A stretch of DNA of 64,000 bases. It comes from Granulosicoccaceae bacterium. GTDB lineage: Bacteria; Pseudomonadota; Gammaproteobacteria; Granulosicoccales; Granulosicoccaceae. Shown here one piece after another: positions 16,959 through 23,255 of this stretch (position 1 is its first letter; every line of letters starts with the position of its first letter). A program made the position numbers and the translations under genes. Below the pieces are notes generated by a model that searched no databases, was not told where the DNA came from, and saw only the letters and a list, made by a program, of their open reading frames with translations. The DNA is taken from positions 1 through 64,000 of the forward strand of contig JAHDCO010000001.1 in NCBI GenBank assembly GCA_020629835.1, read 5' to 3'.

Positions 16959-17411
16959 CTAGGTGGTCAACACGTTTTTCAACCACTGCACATCGTACGA
17001 ACTGAGTGGGTCCTGGGGTTCGGCTGATTCGGTTGGCGAGCACGTTTGATTGCTCATTGACCGTCTTTCATACCTCTCCGAATCCGGTGTGGCCGTAATG
17101 ATCAAGGCGTCGAATCGAGCCCCGTAATTAGCCTCGTGTTGGTGAGCCAGGAACAGCCGGGCGGTAAGTAGCAACTTTTTCTGTTTGTGATACCCGATAG
17201 CCTCGGCGCCCGGCACCCTAGCATTGCGTTGCCGGTATTTCACTTCAACAAACACCCATTGTTGGCTGGGCATGTCTTTTAGAATTAGATCGATTTCGCC
17301 TACACGGCGGCGAAAGTTCCGTTGGTGCGGAGTGAGGCCTTGTTCAGTTAGCCAGGCTTCAGCAGATGCTTCGGCCCATTGCCCCCGGTGGTGGGGTGAT
17401 CGGTAATCCAT
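16959..17411 (-). CDS. yraN: YraN, UPF0102 predicted endonuclease-like protein
   Basis: 150 residues with the UPF0102 endonuclease-like core: the start GQWAEASAEAWLTEQGL, then FRRRVGEIDLILKD and WVFVEVKYRQ carrying the D-ExK type residues, followed by KQKKLLLTARLFL. No reaction is established for the family. The C-terminal 40 residues are a polar extension beyond the usual length of about 120. Last gene of a minus-strand run that begins with lpoA, as in E. coli, but with two extra genes between. Confidence 0.92.
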   Translation of the reverse strand: MDYRSPHHRGQWAEASAEAWLTEQGLTPHQRNFRRRVGEIDLILKDMPSQQWVFVEVKYRQRNARVPGAEAIGYHKQKKLLLTARLFLAHQHEANYGARFDALIITATPDSERYERRSMSNQTCSPTESAEPQDPLSSYDVQWLKNVLTT

Positions 17412-17447: not shown

Positions 17448-18167
17448 TTAATCATTGTCTGTGGTGCCCGCTCCGGCACCTTGGCGGGAAGCTTCAGTTG
17501 CTGGGGCGTAGGTCATAGCTGCCAATCTGTTCAGCACATCAAGTTCGTCTTTGCCAAGTGTCGTTCTATGGACGCGTGATGGTTGCTCAGACATTGCACT
17601 TGGTGAGTCAACCGACAGGATTTGGCAATTGGCTGTGGGGCTTTCGTTTTCGTTAAGGGTGGATGCTTCCGTAGGGTTTGAGCTTGAGTTATGACTCAGC
17701 GTAACGCTGGTTAGCGCCTCTGTGCTGATTAGCTCGGCTTCGAAAGCGGGCGTTAGCAGGTGGGTGCACTGAACTCGCATTCTGCGTTTACTCAGTTGCT
17801 CATTGCGATAGGCCAGAAACGGCAGCAGCAAGTAGGGCGATATAACATGATCAATGCGCAGGTCGCGCAGTTCGATATGCAATGCATCGGTTAGCGCGGT
17901 ACCGCAGGCAAGTGCGCACAGGCCGTTCGGTCCACCCACCCACGGCTGCTGCAGGCTTTGCAATCGCACGGTTGCTAAGTCTAGGCCTTGCACATGCTTT
18001 AGGTGAGAAGCCATAGCGCCAGCTCCGTCCAGGCCTCGATGACACAACCAGGCGACGGCATACGCGGCTTCGTCCGCTAATGACCAGGTATACCCAGCAC
18101 CTCGGGCTGCTTTTTTAACCAAAGCAGCAATTTCGTTGACCGAGCTTTCCGATGTTGCACTTGTCAT
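17448..18167 (-). CDS. DUF3726-like protein of unknown function
   Basis: 239 residues. The first 150 resemble DUF3726: SVNEIAALVKKAARGAGYTWSL, then DEAAYAVAWLCHRGLDG, WVGGPNGLCALACGTALTDAL and a LRVQC-like MRMRVQC region. The last 90 residues are Ser/Glu/Asn-rich and low in complexity, so probably disordered. There is no signal peptide or membrane helix. It starts 9 bases after the 587-residue gene, and in my recollection of the family these two proteins travel together, so they likely act as a pair. No function is known; family assignment is from memory of the motif pattern, not a search. Confidence 0.65.
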   Translation of the reverse strand: MTSATSESSVNEIAALVKKAARGAGYTWSLADEAAYAVAWLCHRGLDGAGAMASHLKHVQGLDLATVRLQSLQQPWVGGPNGLCALACGTALTDALHIELRDLRIDHVISPYLLLPFLAYRNEQLSKRRMRVQCTHLLTPAFEAELISTEALTSVTLSHNSSSNPTEASTLNENESPTANCQILSVDSPSAMSEQPSRVHRTTLGKDELDVLNRLAAMTYAPATEASRQGAGAGTTDND

Positions 18168-18176
18168 GATCGCGCT

Positions 18177-19940
18177 TTAATGGATGGGATAAATCCAACG
18201 ATCAGCGTTGTCTGTGTTTAATTCTTCGGGATACGGGGCGCCAGGATACAAACAAATTCGCACCCATCGATCGGATCGCGGATCAAAACGCGTGGCACCA
18301 AAGAATGACAGTTTGGCGCGCAACAAATCGATAGGCATCATGTCCGCATCGATGGTGTTACTTCTAATCTCGCCATAAGGTGCATAACGGCCCCACTGAG
18401 CTCGTTGCACAGCACGACGATGTTGCGGTTCAGCGACTAAGACCTCGGCGATGGTCGTTTCATCTGCCCAGTTTTGTAAGGCATTAATGGCAGCAACCGC
18501 ATCGCGCGCCGGTGCGAGTGGTTGTTCATAATCGGATAACGGTTCTTCGTAACGTTCGCCTAAGCGGGGCTCTAATTTCTCTTCGGAAACATACCAACAG
18601 CGGGCGGTGGCTGGCTCACTTTGCCAGTCGATAGATTGAGCCCACGAAAAACTGGTTTTAAGTAATTCAGTTACCTCGCTAACGGACTGCGAGCCATCGA
18701 TGCGTTGTGAGTGGCTGACGCTGTCGTGCATGCCGAGGCTCAAATCATCCACGAGTTCTGGGTAGGGTTCCAGGAGTAGCGAAGCCAGACATTCCTGGCC
18801 TTCGAGGCTTAGGTGATCATTAGCCCAGTCCATAACCGCGTTCCAGAAAAATGGCTGCTTGGATGATGGCTGCAAGATGAAGTTTATTAAGCGCTGTAAA
18901 TCATCTACTAATGCGCGTTGTTTCTTTTGCTGTATCGGGTGCTGTGAGTGGTCGTGTTGCGCATCACGTAGCTGATTCTTAAGTAGCGTTGACACCATGG
19001 ATACAGCCTGCTCGTGCACCACCTCCACAGCACGAACTCGTGCGATAGCGGTTTCCCGAGCGTTTATCCAATTGTGGATGAGCACGGGGTGGTTGATCAG
19101 AAAAGGCGCCATGCCAAGCCCGGTGGAATTGCCAATGCCGAGGCCTCGAGCCAGTTCTGGCGCTAACGTTACTGCTCGGCTTCCACCGGCGCAGCGAGCG
19201 GCGTGATTGATCAAGTCGCGCACAAAGGTACGAATCAAATATACCGTCAGCATTTCTACTGAAAACGGTGCAGTGAATAACCTAGCTGTGGTTGGCTCGG
19301 CGAGTAGCTGCTCACGATCGGCTGCGCCAAATTTTCCCGAGCCGTAAACGGCCGTTGTTCGCATGAGGTAACCAACGCCTTGAAGTGCAGTCTCATCCGG
19401 TTGTTGCCCGGAGGCTAAAGCAGCAACCACCGTTTCCCATAACCGCACGGATCGATTAGCTCGCGATAGGGTCAGTTCTTTTTCACTGAGTCGACCTGCC
19501 TCTTGTTTGGGTACGTTTTTACGCAGTCGCTCAATGTCTTCTTTAGTAGGTTGACCATTAAATAGCGTGAACGTGGTGTCCCATTGTTCGGCGATCACAC
19601 GATCTGAGCGAAGTTCGTCTGGCAGATCATGAGCGAAAGCGATTAGGGAAGCCTCTCCACCTGGGTAGTGGGCGGTGTAAACCGCATACCCAACGCCGGT
19701 GTTATCGATATTGAATTCAGGCCGGGAAAACCGCCACCGTTCCGCCGCCATGCGCCGCGTCATTTGACGCATGAAACTGAGTCTGCACTGATGCAACGAT
19801 CCTAATCGATCCAGTTGCATCACCGTATCTGCCGGTCGCAGCCGCACAGCGGCTGCGTTGCTTGGGTAGGTTATGTTTGCTGACGTGCTTTCGGTCAGCA
19901 GCGCAGCGACTTCACTGGTTTTTGATGAATCTGCTTTCAT
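18177..19940 (-). CDS. Conserved protein of unknown function, 587 aa
   Basis: No recognised family name. Soluble-looking, without signal peptide or membrane helix. The N-terminal half has QLDRLGSLHQCRLSFMRQ, FNIDNTGVGYAVYTAHYPG and FAHDLPDELRSDRVIAEQWD. The most striking stretch is a Gly-rich run at about residues 250-290, SRAVTLAPELARGLGIGNS followed by TGLGMAPFLINHPVLIHNW, which looks like a conserved ligand- or cofactor-binding core. The C-terminus has RFDPRSDRWVRICLYPGAPYP. It begins 34 bases after lpoA and is followed 9 bases later by the DUF3726-like gene, forming a two-gene unit inserted between lpoA and yraN. Coding statistics look like the neighbours, arguing against very recent transfer. 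Confidence 0.75.
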   Translation of the reverse strand: MKADSSKTSEVAALLTESTSANITYPSNAAAVRLRPADTVMQLDRLGSLHQCRLSFMRQMTRRMAAERWRFSRPEFNIDNTGVGYAVYTAHYPGGEASLIAFAHDLPDELRSDRVIAEQWDTTFTLFNGQPTKEDIERLRKNVPKQEAGRLSEKELTLSRANRSVRLWETVVAALASGQQPDETALQGVGYLMRTTAVYGSGKFGAADREQLLAEPTTARLFTAPFSVEMLTVYLIRTFVRDLINHAARCAGGSRAVTLAPELARGLGIGNSTGLGMAPFLINHPVLIHNWINARETAIARVRAVEVVHEQAVSMVSTLLKNQLRDAQHDHSQHPIQQKKQRALVDDLQRLINFILQPSSKQPFFWNAVMDWANDHLSLEGQECLASLLLEPYPELVDDLSLGMHDSVSHSQRIDGSQSVSEVTELLKTSFSWAQSIDWQSEPATARCWYVSEEKLEPRLGERYEEPLSDYEQPLAPARDAVAAINALQNWADETTIAEVLVAEPQHRRAVQRAQWGRYAPYGEIRSNTIDADMMPIDLLRAKLSFFGATRFDPRSDRWVRICLYPGAPYPEELNTDNADRWIYPIH

Positions 19941-22905: not shown

Positions 22906-23255
<350 letters not shown>

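Follow-up and report, generated by a model that had tools for sequence, protein, structure and literature searches.

A gene pair of the p587 and DUF3726 families between lpoA and yraN is a probable displaced catabolic core enzyme, with homarine as its best candidate substrate

Gene content of the locus

We analyzed a stretch of 64,000 nucleotides from a Granulosicoccaceae bacterium (assembly GCA_020629835.1, contig JAHDCO010000001.1, positions 1 to 64,000), which we call the window. Two genes lie between lpoA and yraN, and we refer to the proteins that they encode as p587 and the DUF3726 protein, or as the large and the small partner. The four genes and two conserved segments within them are as follows.

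16959 to 17411, minus strand: yraN (UPF0102, Pfam match of 76.1 bits), which flanks the insertion downstream
17448 to 18167, minus strand: gene for the DUF3726 protein, the small partner, 239 amino acids (PF12525, 65 bits against a cut-off of 22.1)
17451 to 17510, minus strand: C-terminal signature of the DUF3726 protein, YAPATEASRQGAGAGTTDND, residues 220-239; distant homologues retain its P-x-[TS]-x-x-S-R..AG core, with S227, A231, and G232 invariant
18177 to 19940, minus strand: gene for p587, the large partner, 587 amino acids (no Pfam or NCBIfam family, and a predicted fold without a PDB match)
19086 to 19139, minus strand: segment GIGNSTGLGMAPFLINHP of p587, residues 268-285; G268, G270, N271, G276, and P285 do not vary among 115 members of the family, which extend down to 27% identity
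19975 to 22044, minus strand (ORF as listed; the real start may be further downstream): lpoA (LppC, Pfam match of 267.5 bits), which flanks the insertion upstream

Pfam matches and the coordinates of the ORFs confirm that both genes are inserted between lpoA and yraN on one strand and with close spacing, as the original prediction had it. The gaps are about 34 bp (lpoA to p587), 9 bp (p587 to DUF3726), and 36 bp (DUF3726 to yraN). Between the four genes there are no terminator-like sites on the minus strand, and promoter matches among them are not above chance. The small protein had been described as "DUF3726-like," which understated the case, as it matches PF12525 in full. In contrast, we found no family for p587 in Pfam, in NCBIfam, or by sequence searches of the PDB. 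Elsewhere in the window, close to rsmI and mraZ, there is a bacterial RNase P RNA of class A (RF00010, 330.5 bits; 22907-23254, plus strand).

Conservation of the pair

Among 57 relatives, 29 encode homologues of p587 (49-70% identity) and 30 encode homologues of the DUF3726 protein, mostly adjoining p587. Because these homologues recur across relatives and are mostly adjacent, we consider both genes to be real. A scan of GTDB identified 305 relatives, of which we kept 80, chiefly Rhodobacterales, SAR116, and bacteria of the Rhizobiaceae group. A DUF3726-like ORF lies 3' of p587 in all 80 loci (74 were found with BLAST and 6 by inspecting the sequence). Also, at 81 of 121 stops (with duplicates among the loci), the stop codon of p587 shares bases with a potential start codon, as ATGA, GTGA, or TTGA. 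So the claim that these proteins are a linked pair is borne out. One exception is the genome G035, in which the two genes are on the same strand but about 7 kb apart. In the GTDB genus to which Ruegeria arenilitoris belongs, p587 is present in 52 of 54 genomes (this is a count for the genus and not for R. pomeroyi itself).

A few loci are unusual. In six streamlined marine Rhodobacteraceae (L080, L086, L089, L090, L103, and L106), p587 and a DUF3726-like gene face a cytochrome c1-like ORF, and the remaining genes of the operon described below were not detected nearby, so the pair again appears to travel alone. The p587 contigs of L054, L099, and L103 are labelled as Acidimicrobiales, Opitutia, and Flavobacteriales. 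In the tree, p587 from L099 and L103 is placed within the SAR116 and Rhodobacteraceae clades, which suggests a binning error or recent transfer.

The catabolic operon

Elsewhere, across hundreds of bacteria from the sea and from soil, the pair forms the center of a catabolic operon. In the annotated plasmids and the families that we checked, the usual setting comprises a LysR regulator, an aldehyde dehydrogenase (ALDH), an M19 "membrane dipeptidase," p587, DUF3726, an Ldh_2 oxidoreductase, and a BCCT transporter. There are variations on this theme. Rhizobia have an OpuAC-type glycine-betaine ABC transporter in place of the BCCT transporter; in Shinella, purU follows the operon; and Vibrio campbellii has its genes arranged as LysR, RidA, ALDH, M19, BCCT, p587, and the small partner. 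A gene from the RidA family of enamine/imine deaminases is beside the operon at L119, L047, L050, L058, and L124, which hints at an enamine or imine intermediate. The genome that the window comes from has a second, intact operon on contig C54 (LysR-ALDH-M19-p587-DUF3726-BCCT) and an extra M19 gene on contig C63.

In several roseobacters and in Shinella, a "sarcosine oxidase" cluster is next to the operon, and it resembles N-methylglutamate dehydrogenase (Mgd). The beta subunit of this cluster shares 80.8% identity with a gene at the mgdABCD locus of Paracoccus aminophilus plasmid pAMI6 (PMC4543880), whereas the window's genome has other sarcosine-oxidase-like clusters for which the value is about 52%. 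The window's genome does have a 78% identical Mgd-like homologue on contig C57, where it is not linked to the operon.

More distant pairs, at 27-30% identity, are found in Variovorax, on pSymB of Sinorhizobium meliloti, in Neorhizobium, and in Mesorhizobium (L125, L126, L127, and L128). In the first three of these, an M19 dipeptidase gene lies 3' of the pair and the transporters are different; Mesorhizobium differs. Because the distant pairs are in other operons with other transporters, it appears that the substrate varies across the p587 family, and these are probably sister systems for other substrates.

An unmatched fold and a probable distant relative of Ldh_2

Across 115 members of the family, down to 27% identity, p587 has 30 invariant residues. 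They are rich in Arg, Asp, and Glu and include a GxGN motif. The glycine-rich, patterned core that was pointed out originally, SRAVTLAPELARGLGIGNS, covers a segment of which some positions (G268, G270, and N271) never vary in the wider family. It had been taken to indicate either a ligand-binding enzyme or a scaffold, and of these, a ligand-binding enzyme is plausible. There is no obvious metal site among the invariant residues of p587, and we could not recognize a cofactor or flavin signature. An AlphaFold2 model of p587 is confident (pLDDT 88, pTM 0.90). Comparing this model to the PDB with Foldseek returned only noise (best E = 1.0), so the predicted fold of p587 is unmatched by any solved structure.

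PF12525 spans only about 73 N-terminal positions, and the most conserved part of the protein is its C-terminal tail (AP-x-T-x-x-SR..GAGAG..DND), which lies outside of the Pfam model. A literature search did not find any paper that names DUF3726. The Ldh_2 family (PF02615) includes malate/L-lactate and ureidoglycolate dehydrogenases and piperideine-2-carboxylate reductase. The DUF3726 protein appears to be distantly related to these dehydrogenases across its N-terminal half, as three weak lines of evidence agree. First, the best PDB matches of its predicted model (pLDDT 81) are mostly Ldh_2 enzymes, with Foldseek E values of 0.09 or worse and TM-scores of about 0.36. Second, in a profile comparison, the N-terminal 125 or so residues align in register with Ldh_2 (E = 7e-5, probability 62%). 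An earlier run of hhalign with a shallow set of Ldh_2 sequences gave a probability of just 5.6%; broader alignments on both sides raised this to 62%. Third, one distant homologue of the small partner matches Ldh_2 with E = 0.0054. Weak matches to Ldh_2 were seen in 3 of 21 relatives, while the protein from the window has no match to PF02615 above the gathering cut-off. The proteins also differ in size: DUF3726 proteins are about 210-240 amino acids and Ldh_2 enzymes are about 335.

A proposed role in the catabolism of homarine

Homarine (N-methylpicolinate) is an algal compound and an abundant, rapidly consumed metabolite of marine phytoplankton. A pathway that leads from homarine to N-methylglutamate was reported in 2026 (Ferrer-Gonzalez et al., Nat Microbiol). 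A homarine operon is reportedly named homABCDER, and the number of its genes would fit five proteins and a LysR regulator. R. pomeroyi depletes homarine within hours (PMC12817926), and a passage in PMC13390433, which cites doi 10.1038/s41564-026-02313-7, states that Mgd is reported to participate in homarine catabolism. The operon that we found often adjoins genes for Mgd, the enzyme that this passage places in the catabolism of homarine, and it is carried by marine Rhodobacterales and by SAR116. Relative to the published homarine genes, the location of the pair between lpoA and yraN would be a displaced variant.

We propose, with a probability of roughly 0.6, that p587 and DUF3726 are the two subunits of the core enzyme in the catabolism of an N-methylated compound similar to betaines, for which homarine is the most likely choice, and that the pair was relocated in a single small clade of bacteria that resemble Granulosicoccus. 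Judging from gene content, homarine is the best candidate for the substrate, and we think that it is probably the right one. For homarine to become N-methylglutamate, one carbon of the ring must be lost. We worked out by hand the balance C7H7NO2 + O2 + 2 H2O + 2[H] -> C6H11NO4 (N-methylglutamate) + CH2O2 (formate). In the pathway that we envision, the betaine transporter would import homarine; p587 and DUF3726 would attack the N-methylpyridinium ring by reducing it to a dihydropyridine and would then cleave the C5=C6 bond to give an N-formyl aldehyde; ALDH would oxidize this aldehyde to the acid; the M19 hydrolase would release formate; the Ldh_2 enzyme would reduce the resulting enamine or imine to N-methylglutamate; and Mgd would convert N-methylglutamate to glutamate and a C1 unit. 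Because ALDH, the amidohydrolase, and the imine reductase would cover all of the later steps, attacking or opening the ring falls to p587 and DUF3726. By this process of elimination, ring attack or opening is the best candidate for their reaction, at odds that we would put slightly below even. We infer that p587 and DUF3726 assemble into a complex, and any assignment of binding roles to the two subunits is a matter of inference as well.

There is a precedent for such a pathway. In the degradation of trigonelline by TgnABCDE of Acinetobacter, the ring of an N-methylpyridinium carboxylate is opened, the aldehyde is oxidized, and the N-formyl group is removed, which is the same sequence that we propose for homarine. 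The difference is that trigonelline degradation uses a two-component flavin monooxygenase, and this has no annotated counterpart in the operons with p587: none of the annotated operons includes a flavin oxygenase and reductase of the trigonelline type. A more specific and more tentative idea, which we would not bet on, is that the pair opens the ring of N-methylpyridinium carboxylates and has a fold that no solved structure shows, with a small subunit that derives from an Ldh_2-like dehydrogenase and has been reused for a nicotinamide-like substrate.

The pair might instead act in the homarine pathway without being an oxygenase. It could hydrate the pyridinium and open the ring by hydrolysis, or it could act on a later intermediate such as an enamine. 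This would fit with the absence of a recognizable metal or flavin signature in p587, with its invariant Arg and Asp/Glu-rich residues, which are as expected for binding a carboxylate, and with the RidA genes that adjoin some of these operons. But the loss of one carbon and the redox balance are easier to explain with oxygen, and every other component of the operon has a step assigned to it, which leaves ring opening to the pair by elimination. We consider a non-oxygenase step to be possible, at about one chance in three.

It is less likely that the operon is of the same kind but acts on another N-methylated or quaternary substrate (e.g., trigonelline, a proline betaine, or another N-methyl heterocycle) and that the product is not N-methylglutamate. 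The linkage to Mgd would also be consistent with a different N-methyl substrate or with methylamine metabolism in general, in which Mgd also takes part (PMC4543880). Furthermore, transporters of the betaine type are not specific for homarine, and the distant pairs are accompanied by different transporters and regulators. Some irregularities in how the genes are distributed count against our own proposal, such as the 7-kb separation in G035 and a genome (G008, discussed below) without close homologues of ALDH or M19. On the other hand, the presence of ALDH, M19, and Ldh_2 beside Mgd matches the balance from homarine to N-methylglutamate, the passage in PMC13390433 gives Mgd a role in the catabolism of homarine, and a flavin monooxygenase of the trigonelline type is not annotated in the operon. 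So we prefer homarine.

How the pair came to lie between lpoA and yraN

We saw the insertion only in the window's genome and in G008, G021, and G025 (the contig from G025 covers only the yraN side). The p587 proteins from these four genomes form one clade (SH-aLRT 98), and in all of the other 26 relatives that are readable at this locus (20 from the same genus and 6 from the same class), yraN directly follows lpoA, with spacings of -70 to 183 bp. The simplest explanation is that the pair entered this locus once, and that the insertion is a derived state which the four species share.

The genome G021 is informative about where the pair came from. Its contig C1 has LysR-ALDH-M19-BCCT without p587 or DUF3726, and its contig C5 has lpoA-M19-p587-DUF3726-yraN, with a second M19 gene and the only copy of p587 in the genome. 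In other words, the genes that are absent from the catabolic operon of G021 are exactly the two that are found at its lpoA locus. Of all our observations, this split operon argues most strongly that the pair at lpoA works in the catabolic pathway. The locus in the window may descend from an arrangement like that of G021 after the loss of the local M19 gene; the M19 gene on C63 is not clearly a direct descendant of that local gene.

Could the relocated pair have lost its catabolic role in this lineage, so that it is drifting or has a new purpose? G008 (L032) keeps the pair between lpoA and yraN, but we did not find a close homologue of ALDH or M19 in its assembly, which is 92% complete, and a complete operon is present a second time in the genome of the window. 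Nevertheless, the window's copy of p587 retains every one of the 30 invariant residues of the wider family, its reading frame is unbroken, and G021 has no copy other than the one linked to lpoA. We view the loss of the catabolic role as quite unlikely.

The original prediction was that the pair may have an undescribed function tied to LpoA and to peptidoglycan synthesis, and although the genes are on one strand, tightly spaced, and without a terminator between them, we reject this as highly improbable given the pair's distribution: its linkage to lpoA is not conserved beyond one clade of four species, and elsewhere it is usually in catabolic operons far from lpoA. As for other types of genes, cargo from defense systems or phage is not indicated, as PADLOC and phage collections gave no match.

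Implications

The insertion is best read as a catabolic core enzyme placed in a cell-wall operon, rather than as a new cell-wall function. Three things are new here: the displacement of the pair, the lack of a structural match for the predicted fold of p587, and the probable descent of DUF3726 from Ldh_2. The window represents a natural split of a catabolic operon, in which the core enzyme has moved into a housekeeping operon, and this move may free the pair from control by the LysR regulator. Branches of the p587 family that are on the plasmids of soil bacteria may act on other heterocycles. If the pair does open the ring of homarine, then two widespread and unnamed protein families would gain a function, an enzyme with a previously unseen fold would become testable, and genomes could be scored for the use of homarine.
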